This document shows positions 31,806 through 39,273 of a stretch of DNA of 64,000 nt, piece after piece. Position 1 is the first letter of the stretch, and each line of letters begins with the position of its first letter. The stretch covers positions 62,001-126,000 of the forward strand of contig DATAUW010000005.1 in the NCBI GenBank assembly GCA_036268055.1, read 5' to 3'. The notes beneath the pieces are model-generated. The model was not told the DNA's origin. It did no database searches and saw nothing but the letters and a program-made list of their open reading frames with translations. The translations under genes and the position numbers were made by a program. The DNA is from Verrucomicrobiia bacterium. GTDB taxonomy: Bacteria > Verrucomicrobiota > Verrucomicrobiia > Limisphaerales > Pedosphaeraceae.

Positions 31806-32888
31806 TTACTTCAACTGCGACATGATCTGGTCCGTGATCGCCTGCACCGCCGCTTCCGCATCGGCATCAAAACTCGGCGAACCGCTTCCCTTGGACGATG
31901 TTTGCGTCAGCGCGCATGCCACGCCCGGACGCCATTCATCGTTATCGCACAATTCACATTCCTTGAGTCCGTGACGCGGGTCGGGAATGCCAAGACTCTG
32001 TTTGATCTTTAGCAAATCCTGGAGTTGCGCTGCCGTCATCGTTTTTGCCGGACGTCCGAGTTGCGCCGTCACGAGCACGGTGCGGCAATACGCTTCCAAA
32101 ATTTCCATTTTGAAATACGCGTCCTCGACATTGTTGTGACTCCACGAAACCACGCCGTGGTTCGCCATCAAAATCGTGTTGTGTTTGTCCACGAGTTCCG
32201 CGACCAGCTTGCCCATCTCGGGTGTGCCGGGCGTGCGGTACGGCGCGATCGCCACCGACGAAAAAACTTCATACTCCGGAATCATGCACGTCGGCGGATT
32301 GATGCCCGCAACCGCGAAGCCCGTGCTGTACGGCGGATGACAATGCACCGTCGCCACCGCGCGCGGCTGCCGCTTCATGATTTGCAAGTGCATCAGGATT
32401 TCGCTGGTGCGCTTTTTCACGCCGCAATATTGATTGCCCTCAAAATCCACGAGGCACATGTCTTCCGGCTTCATGAAGCCCTTGCTCACCAGCGTCGGGG
32501 TGCAAAGCGCGATGTCTTCGCCTACGCGAATCGCGATGTTGCCGCCATTGCCGTCCACATATTCGCGCTGCCACAAGCGGCGGCCAATATCACAAAGCTG
32601 TTCTTTCAACGATTGGCAATATGGCGAATTAAAAAACGCTTCGAGTTCGCTCTTCGAACTTTTTGAAGTCAAAGTTTTTCCCGGAGCAGACACCTCTCCA
32701 TTTAATTTTGGCGCGACGGCAGACGAAGCCGCCGCCTCGCCATTCGTCTTGATGACGCGGCGATTTTCGATGTCGCGCAACAAGTCCTGCGCCGACGGCG
32801 TGATGATCGCATCTTCCGGCAGGCTGTTCAGGTCGCCGCCGCTATTCAGTAATTGCTCGATGTCCCGCGCACTAATGACAGTTCTCAT
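31806..32888 (-). CDS. Microcompartment class II aldolase (L-fuculose/L-rhamnulose-phosphate type)
   Basis: This encodes 360 aa, much longer than free FucA (about 215 aa). The aldolase core spans about residues 80-290. It has the catalytic Glu in RTSEILMHLQIMKRQP, zinc ligands in ATVHCHPPYSTGFAVAG, and the third His in LMANHGVVSWSHNN. Such enzymes cleave deoxyketose phosphates to DHAP and lactaldehyde. An N-terminal extension of about 80 residues (TVISARDIEQLLNSGG) and a C-terminal amphipathic helix (EAAVQAITDQIMSQLK) both look like encapsulation peptides. A Cys pair (ECELCDNDEW) lies near the end. It overlaps the preceding BMC-P gene by 4 bp and is the last gene of the operon. Confidence 0.92.
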   Translation of the reverse strand: MRTVISARDIEQLLNSGGDLNSLPEDAIITPSAQDLLRDIENRRVIKTNGEAAASSAVAPKLNGEVSAPGKTLTSKSSKSELEAFFNSPYCQSLKEQLCDIGRRLWQREYVDGNGGNIAIRVGEDIALCTPTLVSKGFMKPEDMCLVDFEGNQYCGVKKRTSEILMHLQIMKRQPRAVATVHCHPPYSTGFAVAGINPPTCMIPEYEVFSSVAIAPYRTPGTPEMGKLVAELVDKHNTILMANHGVVSWSHNNVEDAYFKMEILEAYCRTVLVTAQLGRPAKTMTAAQLQDLLKIKQSLGIPDPRHGLKECELCDNDEWRPGVACALTQTSSKGSGSPSFDADAEAAVQAITDQIMSQLK

Positions 32889-33190
32889 TTATTAAAAGGA
32901 TTGTAAAAAATTTCGTCCACCAGCGCCGCGTTGATCGCGTCAATGGGCGCCAATTTCGCCAGCGGTTGCGCCGCCTCGCGGCCCTCGACATAACCGATTG
33001 TCTGTCCCACGCCGCCGCCCAAATCGTCATACACCACCAGGCTCGGATCTTTGCTCAAACCCGCGGGCGTCTCCGTGCCGTTCTGATAATGCTCGCGCGT
33101 GAATGGCGAAACGATCAGCCAGCGCCCGCCTTCGAGCGATTCCAGCGTCTTGCTCAACGTCACCCGGCCAATCACGGAACCCAGTTTCAT
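32885..33190 (-). CDS. Microcompartment vertex protein, BMC-P (EutN/CcmL family) 1
   Basis: This encodes 101 aa from the ATG at 33190 (MKLGSVIGRVTLSKTLESLE); a longer reading from 33238 overlaps the next BMC-P gene region and lacks family match. The EutN/CcmL fold forms pentamers that close the vertices of the polyhedral shell. Typical stretches are GGRWLIVSPFTREHY, LVVYDDLGGGVGQTIGYVEG and the hydrophobic end APIDAINAALVDEIFY. It is one of three BMC-P genes in the operon. Confidence 0.9.
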   Translation of the reverse strand: MKLGSVIGRVTLSKTLESLEGGRWLIVSPFTREHYQNGTETPAGLSKDPSLVVYDDLGGGVGQTIGYVEGREAAQPLAKLAPIDAINAALVDEIFYNPFNK

Positions 33191-33209
33191 TTCGTCGTAA
33201 AAATTTTTG

Positions 33210-33488
33210 TCAAACCGGAACGCCCGGTTCGATTTCATCCACCACGCCCAGTACCATCCAACGCGCCGGGCTTTTATCGTCGCCCATGGCTTTGCGGGCT
33301 GCCGAACCGTCCGAAGAAATCACCACGCGCTGGTGCATGCCCGCGCCATGACAATCAATCGCCACCTGCGGCGCGCCTTCCGGCTCGCCCGCGTTGTTGA
33401 TCGGCTGGCAAATCACGAAACGCCATCCCGTAAAACTCGGATGTTTCCGGGTCGCCGTGACATTGCCTTCAACCCGCGCCAATAACAT
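33210..33488 (-). CDS. Microcompartment vertex protein, BMC-P 2
   Basis: This encodes 92 aa of the EutN/CcmL family. The start MLLARVEGNVTATRKHPSF and WRFVICQPINNAGEPEG are characteristic, followed by VAIDCHGAGMHQRVVISSDG and WMVLGVVDEIEPG. It forms shell vertices. It starts 2 bp after the aldehyde dehydrogenase stop, so the two are co-translated. Confidence 0.92.
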   Translation of the reverse strand: MLLARVEGNVTATRKHPSFTGWRFVICQPINNAGEPEGAPQVAIDCHGAGMHQRVVISSDGSAARKAMGDDKSPARWMVLGVVDEIEPGVPV

Positions 33489-33490
33489 GC

Positions 33491-34996
33491 TCAGTAAATT
33501 TTAAGGTTATCCACCATCACGCAACGCCGCGTGCGCGTGAACGTCCGCGGATTCGTCACACCTTCACCGGTCGGCGTGGCGATCGAATAGCTCAAATAGC
33601 CTTCCCCGCCCAGCCCCAGTCCCGCCATGCTCGCCCCGTTCTTGATGAACAACGTCGTATCGAGCGCGCGCCCCATTTCCGTCATCGCTTCGATGTCGTG
33701 CGAATGAATGATCGCGGTATGTTTGTAACCATGCTCGGCTTCGAGCGAGCTTTGCACGCCTTCCTCCAAACTTTTCACACGCACGATCGGCAGGAAAGGC
33801 ATCATCTGTTCTTCAACAACGAACGGATGATTTGCGTCCGTCTCGGCGAATAATAACTGCGTTCCCGCCGGCAAATTCACCCCCGCCGCTGTGGCGAGCA
33901 CACTCGGGTCTTTGCCGATAAAATCGCGATTCACCGAAGCGTGTGCGCAGCCGCCGCCTTGTCCTTCTTTAAAAGTAAACGCCGCCTTCGTTAGCGCGTC
34001 GAGCTGCGCTGAATTCAGTTTCACTGCGCCGTGCTTTTCCATTTCGCCCATCAATTTTCCGGCGATGCCGTCTAGCGCGAAAACTTCCTTCTCGCCAATG
34101 CACAATAAATTATTGTCGTACGCCGCGCCGCTGATAATGGCTTTGGCCGCGCGTTTCATGCACGCCGTGTCGTCCACGTACACCGGCGGATTTCCTGGGC
34201 CCGCGCAAATCGCGCGCTTGCCGGTTTGCATCGCCGCCTTCACCACGGCAGGTCCGCCGGTCACGAGCAGGATGCGAATTGCTTCGTGTTTGCAGATCGC
34301 CGCGAAACTTTCCATCGTCGGCTTCTCGATCAGGCACGCGATATTTTCAATGCCCGTTTCGCGATAAATCGCTTCGTTATAAGCGCGCACGGCGACCGCC
34401 GCGCAACGCACCGCCGAAGGATGCGCGTTGAACACCACCGCATTTCCCGCCGCGACGATGTTCACAATATTGCCGCTCAAGGTCGGAATGGAATGCGTGC
34501 TCGGTGTCACCGCTCCAACGACGCCAAACGGTGTATATTCTTCCAGCGTGATTCCGTGATCACCACTGCGCGCATCGGGTCGAAGCCAATCCACACCCGG
34601 CACGAGTTTGATGATTTTTAGCTTCTCGATTTTGTGGTCGAGCCGCCCGATTTTTGTTTCATCAAATTCGATGCGGCCCCATTGCTCCGCGTTTTTTTCC
34701 GCCAGCGATTTTACGATCTCCTCAATTTTCCGCCGCGCCGCCACGCCTTTCGCTTGCAACTGGCGAAACGATTCCTGTGCCGCCGCGCACGCTTCATTCG
34801 CGTCCTGAAAAACCCCGTACTTGCCGCGCAAGGCCGGCGCGCTGCTCTTCGCTTTGCCGCCGCAACCGCATTCATGCTCGGCCGCTTTCGCGGGAGCCGC
34901 AGCTTGCGCCGGCCTCGCCATCGCGCCGCCATTCAAACGCGCCAACGCTTCGGCTACCACGTCCCGCACCAACGCTTCATTTATGATTGTGCTCAT
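33491..34996 (-). CDS. Microcompartment CoA-acylating aldehyde dehydrogenase (PduP-like)
   Basis: This encodes 501 aa. An N-terminal amphipathic helix (INEALVRDVVAEALARL) is a typical encapsulation peptide, joined by an Ala/Lys linker with a CGCGGK patch at about residues 43-48. The dehydrogenase domain starts near residue 60. It shows GVVGAVTPSTHSIPTLSGNI (cofactor site), CAGPGNPPVYVDDTAC, and the catalytic Cys in YDNNLLCIGEKEV. These enzymes oxidise an aldehyde to acyl-CoA with NAD+. In this operon the likely substrate is lactaldehyde from the aldolase. Confidence 0.93.
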   Translation of the reverse strand: MSTIINEALVRDVVAEALARLNGGAMARPAQAAAPAKAAEHECGCGGKAKSSAPALRGKYGVFQDANEACAAAQESFRQLQAKGVAARRKIEEIVKSLAEKNAEQWGRIEFDETKIGRLDHKIEKLKIIKLVPGVDWLRPDARSGDHGITLEEYTPFGVVGAVTPSTHSIPTLSGNIVNIVAAGNAVVFNAHPSAVRCAAVAVRAYNEAIYRETGIENIACLIEKPTMESFAAICKHEAIRILLVTGGPAVVKAAMQTGKRAICAGPGNPPVYVDDTACMKRAAKAIISGAAYDNNLLCIGEKEVFALDGIAGKLMGEMEKHGAVKLNSAQLDALTKAAFTFKEGQGGGCAHASVNRDFIGKDPSVLATAAGVNLPAGTQLLFAETDANHPFVVEEQMMPFLPIVRVKSLEEGVQSSLEAEHGYKHTAIIHSHDIEAMTEMGRALDTTLFIKNGASMAGLGLGGEGYLSYSIATPTGEGVTNPRTFTRTRRCVMVDNLKIY

Positions 34997-35008
34997 GTTC
35001 GATTCCGC

Positions 35009-35320
35009 TTATGTGCGCGCGTTGTAAATTTGTTTTCCCAAAACATCCACGGCATCCACGATGCCGATAACCACCGCGTCCACGGGCGCTTCCTTCAACC
35101 CCGCCGCGAGCCGCGCGGAACTGCCCTGGCAAAATAAAACGAGTTCACCCAGTCCCGCGCCCACGCTGTCCACTGAGACAATCGTGTTCATACCCGGGCG
35201 AAATTTCGTCGGGTCCTTGTCATCCACGAGTTGCGGACGCAGCAGCAGCAGTTTTCTGCCGCCCATCGCCGCGTCTTTTTTCGTGGAGACCACCGTGCCT
35301 TCGACTCTTGCCAGGAACAT
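35009..35320 (-). CDS. Microcompartment vertex protein, BMC-P 3
   Basis: This encodes 103 aa of the EutN/CcmL family, the clearest of the three: MFLARVEGTVVSTKKDAAMG, RKLLLLRPQLVDDKD, IVSVDSVGAGLGELVLFCQG, and PVDAVVIGIVDAVDVLG. It forms pentameric vertices. It lies 12 bp before the aldehyde dehydrogenase start and 39 bp after the BMC-H gene at 35360. Confidence 0.95.
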   Translation of the reverse strand: MFLARVEGTVVSTKKDAAMGGRKLLLLRPQLVDDKDPTKFRPGMNTIVSVDSVGAGLGELVLFCQGSSARLAAGLKEAPVDAVVIGIVDAVDVLGKQIYNART

Positions 35321-35359
35321 AATTTTATTTGGCGCTCGCGAACTTCGCGAACGGTCCGT

Positions 35360-35644
35360 TTATTTTTTCTTGGGCAAAACCTGTTCGACTTCGCTGTGCG
35401 GGCGCGCGATGACATGCACGCTGACGAGGTCGCCCTTGATGGCCTTGACCGCCTGCGCGCCGGCATCCGTCGCCGCCTTCACCGCCGCGACGTCGCCGAC
35501 GACCACTGCCGTCACGAGCGCGTTGCCGACTTGCGTCATCGGGCCGGCCAGTTCCACGTTCGCCGCCTTGAGCATCGCGTCCGTCGCTTCGACCAGCGCG
35601 ACGAGTCCGCGGGTTTCGATTAATCCAATTGCTTGTTGTGCCAT
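35360..35644 (-). CDS. Microcompartment shell protein, BMC-H 1
   Basis: This encodes 94 aa, a single BMC domain forming hexameric facet tiles. The N-terminus AQQAIGLIETRGLVALVEAT and [19 protein letters not shown] are typical, as is VSVHVIARPHSEVEQVLP. The loop that lines the hexamer pore reads QVGNALV (residues 38-44) and lacks the usual GSG or GGG, so its pore should differ from those of the two other BMC-H paralogues. It starts 4 bp after the acetate kinase stop. Confidence 0.95.
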   Translation of the reverse strand: MAQQAIGLIETRGLVALVEATDAMLKAANVELAGPMTQVGNALVTAVVVGDVAAVKAATDAGAQAVKAIKGDLVSVHVIARPHSEVEQVLPKKK

Positions 35645-35648
35645 AATC

Positions 35649-36893
35649 TTAATTCACTGTTGATGGTTGAGGTTTAAATTCACTTTCAAATTGTTTCGGC
35701 GCTCGCGCATTTTCTTTTTCGAGCAACCGCTTCACTTCACGCGCCACAACTAATTCTTCATTCGCCGGAATCACCAAAATCTTCACGCGCGAATTCGCCG
35801 AACTGATAACCTTTTCCTGCGCGCGCGTCTGACTATTCAAAGCCGCGTCCAATTCGATGCCCAACTGGTCCAGGTTCGCGCAAACTGCCGAGCGCACGAG
35901 CGCATCGTTCTCACCAATGCCCGCCGTGAACACCAGCGCATCTGCGCCATTTAATTGCGCCAGGCTCGCGCCGATCCAATGCCGCGCGCTCGCCACAAAA
36001 ACATCCAGCGCAAGTTTCGCCTTCGCATTCCCTTGCGCCGCCGCCGCGCCGACGTCGCGAATGTCATTTGACACTTCGCTCAAGCCTTTCAATCCCGATT
36101 CCTTGCACAGTTGCCGCTCGGCTTCTTCGAGCGAAATATTCAACGCCTGCATCGCGAACGGAACTGCGAGGCTGTCCAAATCTCCGACGCGATTATTCTG
36201 TGGCAAACCGGATTGCGGACTGAGCCCCATGCTCGTCTCCATCGAGACGCCATTCAAAATCGCGCAAACACTCGAACTGCCGCCGAGGTGGCATGAGATC
36301 ACGCGCAAATTAGGACCGGAAATTTTGGTCGCACCATCGTCGAGATAAAGATTTTGTGCGCGCCGGGCGATATCTTCGCGGCCGAGCAGTTGCGCGCTGC
36401 GTTCGGCAATAAATTTATGGCTCGCGCCGTGAAATCCCTGACGCCGCACGCCCGCGCGATGCCACGCTTCCGGAACCGCATAACGCTGCACCGCCTCGGG
36501 CGAGTATTGATGAAACGCCGTCTCAAACAAACCGATCAGCGGCACGCCGGGCAATCGCTTTGCAAACAATCGGATGCCGGTGATGTAAGGCGGATTGTGC
36601 GCCGGTGCGATGCCGTTATAACCCGCCATCGCTTCCAAAACTCTTTCGTCGAGTGGCACGCAACCTGTCACGCCCTTGGCCGCGACCGTCTTGAAACCAA
36701 TTCCCGCCAGGTCGCGTTCGCTGGTGATCATGCCCGCGTCGCGCAAAGCGGCGAGACATTCCTCAATCGCCTTCACATAATCCGTCACGCGCTCGAAACC
36801 GCCCTTGTGAAGCATCTGCTCGCGACCATTCGACAAATCGAACAGCCGCCATTTCAGCGAGGTCGTTCCAAGATTGGCGACGAGAACCTTCAC
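35649..36893 (-). CDS. Acetate kinase family protein, divergent, microcompartment-linked
   Basis: This encodes 414 aa of the acetate/propionate kinase fold (ASKHA). Asn7 (VLVANLGTTSLKW), the His in APAHNPPYITG, GFHGASHKFIAERSAQ, the Arg in NNRVGDLD, FTAGIGENDALVRSAV and the final Glu in IPANEELVVAREV are kept. Other sites differ from well-studied enzymes. The catalytic Asp of FDTAFH is Glu124 (FETAFH), the Arg of GHRVVHGG is apparently Lys68 (GFKTVAAKG), and HLGNGAS reads HLGGSSS. It probably phosphorylates ADP from the acyl phosphate made by PduL, perhaps lactyl phosphate. No encapsulation peptide is evident. Confidence 0.88.
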   Translation of the reverse strand: MKVLVANLGTTSLKWRLFDLSNGREQMLHKGGFERVTDYVKAIEECLAALRDAGMITSERDLAGIGFKTVAAKGVTGCVPLDERVLEAMAGYNGIAPAHNPPYITGIRLFAKRLPGVPLIGLFETAFHQYSPEAVQRYAVPEAWHRAGVRRQGFHGASHKFIAERSAQLLGREDIARRAQNLYLDDGATKISGPNLRVISCHLGGSSSVCAILNGVSMETSMGLSPQSGLPQNNRVGDLDSLAVPFAMQALNISLEEAERQLCKESGLKGLSEVSNDIRDVGAAAAQGNAKAKLALDVFVASARHWIGASLAQLNGADALVFTAGIGENDALVRSAVCANLDQLGIELDAALNSQTRAQEKVISSANSRVKILVIPANEELVVAREVKRLLEKENARAPKQFESEFKPQPSTVN

Positions 36894-36944
36894 AATTTTT
36901 TACTGTAGCGGCGATCTATGACCGTCGAATTGTTTGCGCGCAAA

Positions 36945-37223
36945 TTATTGCAGCCACTTGCCCAATGCGCTCAATCCGTCGTGCGGACGAGGAATCACCT
37001 GCACGCTCACGACCTGGCCGACTTGCGCCGCTGCCGCCGCGCCGGCATCCGTCGCCGCTTTTACGCTCGCCACATCGCCGCGAAAAAACACTGTGACATA
37101 GCCGCTGCCGACTTTTTCCCAGCCCGTGAAGGTGACATTCGCCGCCTTGAGCGCAGCATCAGCCGCTTCAAACGAGGCGCAGAGCCCCTTAGTCTCGATC
37201 ATCCCGATTGCTTGTTGTGCCAT
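36945..37223 (-). CDS. Microcompartment shell protein, BMC-H 2
   Basis: This encodes 92 aa, a single BMC domain. [20 protein letters not shown] starts it, and [20 protein letters not shown] and [17 protein letters not shown] follow. The pore loop is KVGSGYV (residues 37-43), close to the classical GSG motif. It lies between the acetate kinase gene and a third BMC-H gene, 24 bp from the latter. Confidence 0.95.
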
Positions 37224-37247
37224 ATAGATTTTGGAGTTGAGTTGAAA

Positions 37248-37538
37248 TTATTTTTTCGCCGCAGCCGCTTCACCGAGAAAGCCCTTGAGCAAATCTTCGT
37301 GCGGGCGCGCGATGACGTGCGACGCCACAAGTTCGCCAGTCTTGGTCGCGGCCTTCGAACCGGCGTCCACGGCCGCCTTCACGCTCGCCACGTCGCCGCG
37401 GCAGATGACGGTGATTAAGCCGCCGCCGATGGGGACGGTTCGGGAAATAGTGATGTTCGCGGCCTTGGCCATCGCGTCGGTCGCTTCGACGCTGGCGGTA
37501 AAGCCCTTGGTTTCGATCATGCCGATTGCTTCGCTCAT
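37248..37538 (-). CDS. Microcompartment shell protein, BMC-H 3
   Basis: This encodes 96 aa, a single BMC domain: [39 protein letters not shown] and VASHVIARPHEDLLKGF. The pore loop is PIGGGLI (residues 36-42). The tail ends in Ala/Lys. It is the second gene of the operon, 36 bp after pduL. Confidence 0.95.
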   Translation of the reverse strand: MSEAIGMIETKGFTASVEATDAMAKAANITISRTVPIGGGLITVICRGDVASVKAAVDAGSKAATKTGELVASHVIARPHEDLLKGFLGEAAAAKK

Positions 37539-37574: not shown

Positions 37575-38252
37575 TTATTTCGTTAATTCGCAGGGAGTAT
37601 TTGGCTGAAGATCACAGGCATTGCCTTCGTCCGTGTCAATGTGGACCTCGAGCTTGAAACTCTTGTCCACCCGCACGAGCAATTCATCCAGGCTGATCGC
37701 GCACGGCCCGCCGATCTTCAGCCGCATCCGGTCGCCATTTTTCACGCGATAAAATTCCGCGTTCGCCGGGCTCATGTGAACGTGCCGCGCCGCGCGGATC
37801 ACGCCTTCCTTCATTTCAAAAAATCCTTCTGGCCCCATCAGCATGCAACCTGGCGTGCCCGCGATGTTTCCCGACGGCCGCAAGGGAATATCGAACCCGA
37901 GCGCAATGGCGTCGGTATAGGCGAGTTCGATCTGATTAAAATTGCGGCACGGACCGAGAATGCGAAGATTGGAAATGACCCGGCTGCGCGGCCCGATGAG
38001 CGTCAGCGTTTCTTTCGCCGCGAATTGCCCCTCCTGATAAAGCCATTTGTGTGGCTGCAACTGATGGCCTTTGCCAAACAATACCTCGACCGCTTCCTGC
38101 GTCAGGTGGCAATGTCGCGCACTGATATTTACCACGAGCGGATCGGTGCCGGTAGCCTGACGGGGCAAAGTTTTACCCAACCGGTCGTAAACCAGTTGCC
38201 GAACCATGTGTTCGACCACCGCGCGATGGACATTGCGTGTATCCAAACTCAT
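37575..38252 (-). CDS. pduL: Phosphate acyltransferase PduL, microcompartment type
   Basis: This encodes 225 aa from the ATG at 38252; a longer reading to 38330 would run through the operator repeats. PduL swaps CoA for phosphate on an acyl-CoA, releasing CoA inside the shell. Zinc-binding motifs are visible: VVNISARHCHLTQEA near residue 45 and AARHVHMSPANAEFY in the second half. The N-terminal helix (NVHRAVVEHMVRQLVYDRLG) is a likely encapsulation peptide. It is the first gene of the operon, immediately downstream of the repeats shared with the divergent DeoR gene. Confidence 0.95.
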   Translation of the reverse strand: MSLDTRNVHRAVVEHMVRQLVYDRLGKTLPRQATGTDPLVVNISARHCHLTQEAVEVLFGKGHQLQPHKWLYQEGQFAAKETLTLIGPRSRVISNLRILGPCRNFNQIELAYTDAIALGFDIPLRPSGNIAGTPGCMLMGPEGFFEMKEGVIRAARHVHMSPANAEFYRVKNGDRMRLKIGGPCAISLDELLVRVDKSFKLEVHIDTDEGNACDLQPNTPCELTK

Positions 38253-38268
38253 AACGTATTCTGAACTA

Positions 38269-38330
38269 TATCTACCAAGATTAACCAAGTCGTCAATAAA
38301 AATCTTGCAATATCTATCAATATCTTCCAT
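38269..38330. promoter_or_regulatory. Operator-like array of 10-bp repeats between pduL and the DeoR gene
   Basis: Five 10-bp units occur: TATCTACCAA (38269-38278), GATTAACCAA (38279-38288), AATCTTGCAA (38301-38310), TATCTATCAA (38311-38320) and TATCTTCCAT (38321-38330). Units are directly adjacent except for a 12-bp gap. The consensus is about TATCTANCAA, so each unit falls on the same face of the helix. On the plus strand TTGCAA (38305-38310), 17 bp and CATAAT (38328-38333) could form the regulator's promoter, inside the repeats. The likely binder is the DeoR-type protein encoded next door. Confidence 0.65.
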
Positions 38331-38340
38331 AATGATTGAA

Positions 38341-39273
38341 ATGAAGGCCGAAGAGCGCCAAAAACGAATTGAAGAATATCTTCAAAAGGCTGAATTCGCG
38401 TCTCTCGAAGAGCTTGCCAGGCACGTAGATACATCCATTTCAACCGTTCGCCGTGATGTCACAGCTTTGGAAACCGCTGGAAATGTGCGCCGAACCCATG
38501 GCGGAGCGCGATTAATCAATCCGCAATCGAATGAATTCGTCTTTTCCCTGCGCGACACGCTGCAACTCCCGGAAAAAGAGGCGATTGGCCTTGCTTGTGC
38601 GAACCTCATTCCGCCCGGGCAGAGCGTGATTATTGATTCCGGCACCACGGTCTTTCACGCCGCGCAACATCTCGAAGACCATGCGCTCCACGTCATCACC
38701 AATTCCCTTCCCGTCGCGAATCTTTTCGCCTCGTCACAACACATCGAAGTCATGGTCAGCGGTGGGGTGATTTATCCGCGCCTTGGCGTCTTGGTGGGAC
38801 CGCTCGCGGTGGATGCCTTCACGAAAATCAATGCCGATGTCGCCATCATGAGCGGCGGCGGCATCACGCTCGATGGCATCACTAATTCTCACGCGCTGCT
38901 CATTGATATTCAGCAGGCGATGATTCGGGCGGCGAGCAAGGTGATTTTTTGCCTCGACCACACGAAATTCGGACGCCGCTCGGTGGCGCATCTTTGCGAT
39001 CTCTCAATCATTGATTGTGTTGTCACCGATGCTGGTGCGCCGCCCGACCTCGTCCAGGCGTTGCGAAATCGCGGACTCGAAGTAATCGTAGCTCCCCAAG
39101 CCATCAGCCCCATTTCCATGCCGGATGTTCCCTCCCCTGCTCCAATTCCCAAACGCGCGTCGCCTTTAAAAAAGCTCACGCCGATTAATGCTCCGCGCCC
39201 TGCTCCAGCGACTGAAAAAAATATTTCTGACCCAGCTCCTGAATCCAGCGACAGCCGCATGGGGTGGGATTGA
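38341..39273 (+). CDS. DeoR-family transcriptional regulator of the microcompartment operon
   Basis: This encodes 310 aa from the ATG at 38341; an ATG at 38332 adds three residues but overlaps the candidate -10. The N-terminal winged helix-turn-helix is clear (ERQKRIEEYLQKAEFASLEE; HVDTSISTVRRDV). The DeoR effector domain follows (DTLQLPEKEAIGLACANLIP; VIIDSGTTVFHAAQHL; ADVAIMSGGGITLDG; DHTKFGRRSVAHLCDL). These proteins usually repress sugar operons and respond to a sugar phosphate. The last 60 residues form a Pro/Ser-rich tail not usual in the family. It is divergent from pduL, which implies control of that operon and of itself. Confidence 0.93.
   Translation: MKAEERQKRIEEYLQKAEFASLEELARHVDTSISTVRRDVTALETAGNVRRTHGGARLINPQSNEFVFSLRDTLQLPEKEAIGLACANLIPPGQSVIIDSGTTVFHAAQHLEDHALHVITNSLPVANLFASSQHIEVMVSGGVIYPRLGVLVGPLAVDAFTKINADVAIMSGGGITLDGITNSHALLIDIQQAMIRAASKVIFCLDHTKFGRRSVAHLCDLSIIDCVVTDAGAPPDLVQALRNRGLEVIVAPQAISPISMPDVPSPAPIPKRASPLKKLTPINAPRPAPATEKNISDPAPESSDSRMGWD

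Follow-up and report, generated by a model that had tools for sequence, protein, structure and literature searches.

A 10-bp direct-repeat array between pduL and a DeoR-family regulator gene, a candidate operator of a verrucomicrobial microcompartment locus

In the iol divergon of Bacillus subtilis, the DeoR-family repressor IolR acts on tandem direct repeats of about 11 bp. The predicted operators of DeoR-family rhamnose regulators, as described in the available part of PMC3870299, are, for four groups, imperfect direct repeats with a periodicity of 10–11 bp; one such regulator, Chloroflexus RhaR, bound in vitro a 38-bp fragment with four tandem units upstream of rhaR and was released by L-rhamnulose (same source). 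DeoR-family proteins form tetramers or octamers (PMC10991401, available part). A DeoR-family regulator is also part of the PVM type of bacterial microcompartment locus, which serves rhamnose/fucose degradation (PMC4207490, available part), and the PvmA promoter/regulator pair of Planctopirus limnophila is rhamnose-inducible (PMC11958385, available part). The available text of PMC11958385 contains no operator definition for pvmA, we found no operator detail in that of PMC3750489, and among the matches listed in a search of the open-access literature there was no described binding site for a verrucomicrobial microcompartment DeoR. Here we analyse a repeat array found in a 64,000-nucleotide stretch of DNA (the window) from a Verrucomicrobiia bacterium (assembly GCA_036268055.1, contig DATAUW010000005.1, positions 62,001 to 126,000).

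The deoR–pduL gap and its repeat array

The genes that flank the array are divergently transcribed, as follows.

31806-37538, minus strand: remaining presumed microcompartment operon (BMC shell genes, acetate kinase, EutN/CcmL vertex genes, aldehyde dehydrogenase, class II aldolase)
37575-38252, minus strand: pduL, phosphate propanoyltransferase, first gene of the microcompartment operon (Pfam PTAC, 6.7e-70; start taken from orthologues)
38341-39273, plus strand: deoR, DeoR-family regulator with HTH_DeoR and DeoRC domains, 310 aa (Pfam; start matches orthologues)

The class II aldolase, found together with a DeoR regulator, acetate kinase and shell genes, marks this as a PVM-type locus. The regulator belongs to the DeoR family by its matches to PF08220 (9.4e-16) and PF00455 (5.8e-45), each of which exceeds the gathering score. 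It matched 11 NCBIfam families of named DeoR-family repressors (SrlR, GlpR, AgaR, UlaR and others), and since none of the curated cut-offs is reached (the top score is 157 bits for SrlR, against a cut-off of 350) we leave it without a specific name. The closest solved chain by sequence, 7l6l_A, covers the DeoR effector domain only, so we present no DNA-bound model. The window protein has a proline-rich C-terminal tail and is 310 aa long, against a median of 259 aa among 91 orthologues.

Mechanical calling of the pduL open reading frame places its start at an ATG at 38330, within the array. We compared this start in 75 relatives with pduL (none was detected in 4 others of the 79 aligned loci described below). 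An ATG lies 40–42 codons ahead of the VNxSARH motif in 73 of the 75, at the position of 38252 in the window; 50 have an in-frame stop between the pduL start and the far side of the array, and in the other 25 the frame is open beyond the array, while in the window it is open to 38330. The start at 38330 was rejected, as the orthologues put it at 38252. With deoR starting at 38341 the array is therefore intergenic, in a gap of 88 bp, and is composed as follows.

38269-38278, plus strand: decamer unit 1, TATCTACCAA, block 1 (11.6 bits; relatives have a weaker ANTTTGNCA in the same register, columns -36 to -28)
38279-38288, plus strand: decamer unit 2, GATTAACCAA, block 1 (weak, score -1.4)
38289-38300: inter-block gap of 12 bp (direct reading)
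38301-38310, plus strand: decamer unit 3, AATCTTGCAA, block 2 (direct reading, relatives' columns and unit score)
38311-38320, plus strand: decamer unit 4, TATCTATCAA, block 2 (CA core, with C and A each in 77 of 79 relatives)
38321-38330, plus strand: decamer unit 5, TATCTTCCAT, block 2 (C in 77 and A in 78 of 79 relatives)

An earlier note on this DNA had described five units in two blocks, with 10-bp steps and a 12-bp gap, lying between the DeoR-type gene and pduL on one face of the helix. Direct reading agrees in each respect, with the qualification that 38269-38330 holds four strong TATCTANCAA-like decamers and one weak one (38279); the starts at 38341 and 38252 flank the array, and on a helix of 10.5 bp per turn the five units stay within 17 degrees of a single face. 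The unit consensus, AATCTTCCAA, comes from a matrix built on the relatives (79 training sequences, including the window itself), and because that matrix was trained at 10-bp spacing it is partly circular. By this measure the four strong units score 10.2–11.6 bits, values equalled by 0.005–0.011% of window 10-mers on both strands; 2% of window 10-mers reach the -1.4 bits of the unit at 38279, which may be unbound.

When the 88-bp gap was shuffled, three units at exact 10-bp spacing never arose in 200,000 trials, and two units did so 108 times; the search expression had been picked after the site was known. Up to two mismatches to TCTWNCAANATCTWNCA gave four matches in the window, all in the array, where 0.77 were expected and 1 of 100 shuffles reached four. 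With at most one mismatch the array was the sole site in the 5.1-Mb genome (two overlapping matches), and the reversed control gave three matches. The pattern GTCAA-N8-TTGCA occurs once in the window against 0.19 expected, and 18 of 100 shuffles equalled this, so it is unremarkable alone; its weight derives from the relatives. A search of 37900-38700 against Rfam at the gathering threshold gave no match.

Conservation of the array and its linkage to pduL and deoR

For comparison we used 102 deoR loci, namely 22 of 29 (the weak paralogues L023-L029 were left out) and the best 80 of 152; 91 of these are non-redundant. GTCAA-N8-TTGCA is present upstream of deoR in 79 of the 91. By eye, the other 12 comprise six with other spacing (L010, L022, L061, L067, L072 and L107), three that carry the element 1.2–2.2 kb away (L054, L057 and L058), one with undetermined bases at the junction (L063), one that is rearranged (L078) and one that has no TTGCA (L015). 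The invariance of GTCAA and TTGCA in the 79 is by construction, because both served as the selection rule. Of the two decamers that follow TTGCA, each keeps its CA core in at least 77 of the 79, and alignment columns -60 to -50 of the same loci hold at most 0.19 bits. The phasing is also seen in the spacing of CT..CA pairs, a test that is less circular than the unit matrix, although its motif was likewise chosen after the consensus had been seen: 98 upstream regions gave 87 pairs at 10 bp and 61 at 20 bp, the next spacing having 10, and the coding controls gave no pair at 10 bp inside deoR (11 matches) and one inside pduL (48 matches). Two loci, L005 and L110, continue the decamers at 10-bp spacing past the -35/-10 pair of the putative deoR promoter. 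Family f51 (L157-L161), judged by eye, has a variant layout that retains GTCAACAA.TTCTTGCA, has a middle decamer that is weak or absent, and carries extra decamers upstream on the pduL side. The earlier note had proposed comparing this gap in related genomes and had named absence of the repeats from close relatives as the outcome that would speak against its reading; the 10-bp array proved to be kept within the order, and a few class members outside it have it too.

The full 38-bp pattern was found in 35 of 384 genomes of the class, one copy in each, and the reversed pattern in none. All 35 fall among the 82 of 384 that encode DeoR at E<=1e-50, and none of the other 302 has the pattern (the draws for pattern and for DeoR were taken as the same 384 genomes, from their equal count and handles). 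The deoR start lies less than 150 bp from the pattern in 33 of the 35, as judged by eye from coordinates. A phylum-wide draw of 387 genomes gave five pattern matches, four of them in members of the class and the fifth in G622, where a crude motif test detected neither deoR nor pduL beside the pattern; this fifth match is probably due to chance.

The linkage survey covered 125 distinct loci, of which 98 have a divergent pduL, 24 do not, and 3 have too little upstream sequence. It took in 39 of the 47 pattern-less DeoR genomes and the second DeoR of G093 (34 of these 40 loci were new), and "without pduL" means that none was found on the upstream side (within 900 nt in this survey and about 2.4 kb for paralogues, less at contig ends). 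Loci that have either the array or GTCAA..TTGCA number 95 of the 98 with divergent pduL, 1 of the 24 without and 3 of the 3 with short upstream sequence. Among the 98, 86 pass the decamer test and 92 the GTCAA..TTGCA test; nine have GTCAA..TTGCA and fail the strict decamer test, and three have neither motif (L015, L063 with its undetermined bases, and L156). The DeoR paralogues L162-L181, for which no pduL was found upstream, have no decamer array. A similar S[LV]ST forms the recognition segment in 19 of these 20 loci, so the presence of the array cannot be read from the recognition helix.

Three of the 24 loci without adjoining pduL, L054, L057 and L058, have no repeats in the upstream region of deoR; in them the array lies at about 4.1, 3.8 and 4.8 kb of the locus, respectively, beside pduL and 1.2–2.2 kb from deoR; the DNA between array and deoR holds complete frames of 348 aa (L054) and 586 aa (L057), the longest in L058 being 157 aa. 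That the array stays with pduL in these loci argues that its function belongs to the microcompartment operon and goes beyond that of a deoR core promoter.

In family f58, G093 and G194 (loci L184 and L183) have array, pduL and a DeoR at E of about 1e-121 to 1e-123. In the remaining f58 genomes with a match the only DeoR is a distant one (about 1e-64 to 1e-74), and G093 has both. This distribution suggests that the locus in G093 and G194 was acquired by horizontal transfer.

Putative divergent promoters and the predicted deoR leader

Promoter-like hexamers on both strands lie within and beside the decamers.

38305-38310, plus strand: -35-like TTGCAA of the putative deoR promoter, inside unit 3
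38328-38333, plus strand: -10-like CATAAT of the same promoter, extending out of the end of unit 5 (63 of 79 relatives retain A2 and T6)
38291-38296, minus strand: -35-like TTGACG of the putative pduL promoter (plus-strand GTCAA, 8 nt before TTGCA in 79 of 91 regions)
38269-38274, minus strand: -10-like TAGATA of the same promoter, 16 nt from TTGACG (CAAANT-like in relatives, A2 and T6 in 37 of 79; moderate support)

The two -35 boxes, TTGACG on the minus and TTGCAA on the plus strand, stand back to back 8 bp apart. TTGCAA-17-CATAAT (38305-38333) is the sole promoter match in a 401-bp scan, where 0.5 were expected. Three loci with decamers past the promoter (L110, L005 and L150, the last two from the same genus) have a CANANT-like hexamer 17 nt after TTGCAA, and L094 has one at 18 nt. 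Because the T conserved in the deoR -10 recurs in step with that of the decamers (columns 8, 18 and 28), it cannot count as separate proof of a promoter. On the pduL side the -10 is poorly conserved (37 of 79); the pduL start lies 37–41 nt from the minus-strand TTGAC in 50 of 75 relatives and 44 nt in the window. To judge from the sequence, the operator units overlap the hexamers of both putative promoters, as had been claimed earlier, and the fixed TTGCA (plus) and TTGAC (minus) of the relatives support this overlap.

The -10 and the deoR start codon are 7 nt apart in the window, 6–9 nt in 65 of the 79 relatives, 10–12 nt in nine and 15–36 nt in five. Our initial rule for choosing start codons leaned to the expected distance, and a repeat without that rule left the 65 of 79 unchanged. 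Transcription usually starts 7–9 nt after a -10 element, and a spacing of 6–9 nt thus predicts that the deoR leader is probably 0–3 nt long in these 65 cases. The claim of the earlier note that the deoR mRNA would be leaderless can therefore be kept in a weaker form, as plausible here and not universal among the relatives. A second in-frame deoR ATG at 38332, 9 nt upstream of the first, overlaps the -10 and would precede the predicted transcription start; an ATG at this position is present in two of the 79 aligned loci, the window counted. A Shine-Dalgarno-like motif precedes 2 of 79 deoR starts, a scarcity that is weak evidence, because just 55 of 433 other ORF starts have one as well. Leaderlessness as a general habit of these genomes was rejected, since TANNNT ahead of the 433 ORF starts, crudely chosen as these were, shows no clear peak (9 at -14 and 0–6 elsewhere from -30 to -4). 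In the open-access literature we found no paper joining leaderless mRNA, Verrucomicrobia and transcription start sites, and the available text of PMC3160421 (Zheng 2011) does not contain "Verrucomicrob-". The near-fixed distance from promoter to start codon makes a case for testing leaderless translation in Verrucomicrobiota.

A proposed operator and its known counterparts

Since the same layout recurs in many relatives and lies on both promoters, the array is very probably the docking site of the neighbouring regulator. We consider it highly likely that it is the operator of the adjacent DeoR, which would bind it cooperatively and keep both divergent promoters repressed, rather than activated, for as long as no rhamnose/fucose intermediate releases it. 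When inducer is absent, several DeoR subunits would lie side by side on one helix face, one per decamer, and would cover the -35 and -10 elements of the two back-to-back promoters, so repressing the microcompartment operon (from pduL onwards) and deoR itself. An intermediate of L-rhamnose or L-fucose breakdown would then bind the DeoRC domain and release DeoR, and the rightward transcript would begin no more than about 3 nt from the deoR start codon.

The conserved sequence might consist of divergent core promoters only, with the repeats a by-product that no regulator reads; the most strongly fixed letters, GTCAA and TTGCA, do resemble two -35 boxes, an invariance that selection of the loci imposed. 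Decamer 4 and most of decamer 5, however, sit in the 17-bp spacer, which is free to vary in core promoters, and yet spacer letters are kept (in 77 of 79 for both the CA in decamer 4 and the column-20 T in decamer 5); moreover, the extended 10-bp spacing in L005 and L110 runs beyond the promoter elements altogether. We therefore find a core-promoter origin very unlikely. Phased short A-tracts could bend the DNA with no need of a sequence-specific protein, and the consensus of the relatives does have AAA every 10 bp (columns 5-7 and 15-17), but the T..CA letters are more conserved (74–78 of 79) than the A runs (53–67 of 79), and the window has lost most of its A runs (TATCTATCAATATC) and still keeps the CT..CA letters, so that bending of this kind is an extremely improbable account.

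The array might instead bind a different regulator, global or local. The deoR genes of L054, L057 and L058 have no adjoining array of their own, which speaks for this; a single copy per genome speaks against a global site, every one of the 35 pattern genomes has this DeoR and the pattern is missing from the 302 others, and tandem 10–11 bp repeats are a format described for DeoR-family rhamnose regulators (PMC3870299, available part). Another regulator is thus quite unlikely. That the stretch codes for an N-terminal PduL extension from the ATG at 38330 has a negligible probability: the open frame in the window and in a third of the relatives fits it, but the in-frame stops of the other 50 and the near-constant ATG ahead of VNxSARH do not.

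With binding by the adjacent DeoR as the preferred reading, we tentatively suggest, as a possibility that we think doubtful at present, that the order maintains a divergon whose two promoters take their sigma hexamers from the regulator's decamers, with back-to-back -35 boxes 8 bp apart, and that the regulator mRNA mostly has a leader of about zero length. If this were true, repressor, RNA polymerase and initiating ribosome would compete for the same 60–70 bp, and translation of the regulator would be coupled to clearance of its own operator. For the DeoR of the verrucomicrobial rhamnose/fucose microcompartment the array offers an operator sequence that can be put to the test, and it supplies a motif for annotating PVM loci, perhaps also for rhamnose-inducible promoters.

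Compared with Bacillus subtilis IolR, both motif and pathway differ. Planctopirus limnophila PvmA has in common with the present protein that it is a DeoR-family regulator of a rhamnose/fucose microcompartment locus; there, however, pvmA stands ahead of pvmB with a 46-bp gap and may share its operon, whereas here deoR is divergent from pduL (PMC11958385, available part). Cooperative binding by DeoR would fit, by analogy, the published DeoR-family operators (PMC3870299) and oligomers (PMC10991401), each as described in the available text. The nearest likeness is to the operators of DeoR-family RhaR proteins, which share with this locus a DeoR-family deoxyhexose regulator (here a presumed one) and direct repeats of 10–11 bp (PMC3870299, available part). 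Like them, the array is made of imperfect direct repeats of that periodicity at a promoter that would be regulated, and it is conserved with its cognate regulator (35 of 35 pattern genomes and 95 of 98 pduL-linked loci). The unit sequence differs, TCGAAA in Chloroflexus RhaR against TCTNNCA here, and the array consensus does not match the former. The likeness is one of repeat format, and here five units in two blocks are spread over two divergent microcompartment promoters. From its sequence, the predicted operator is somewhat unusual in its compactness and belongs to a known type of DeoR-family tandem operator.
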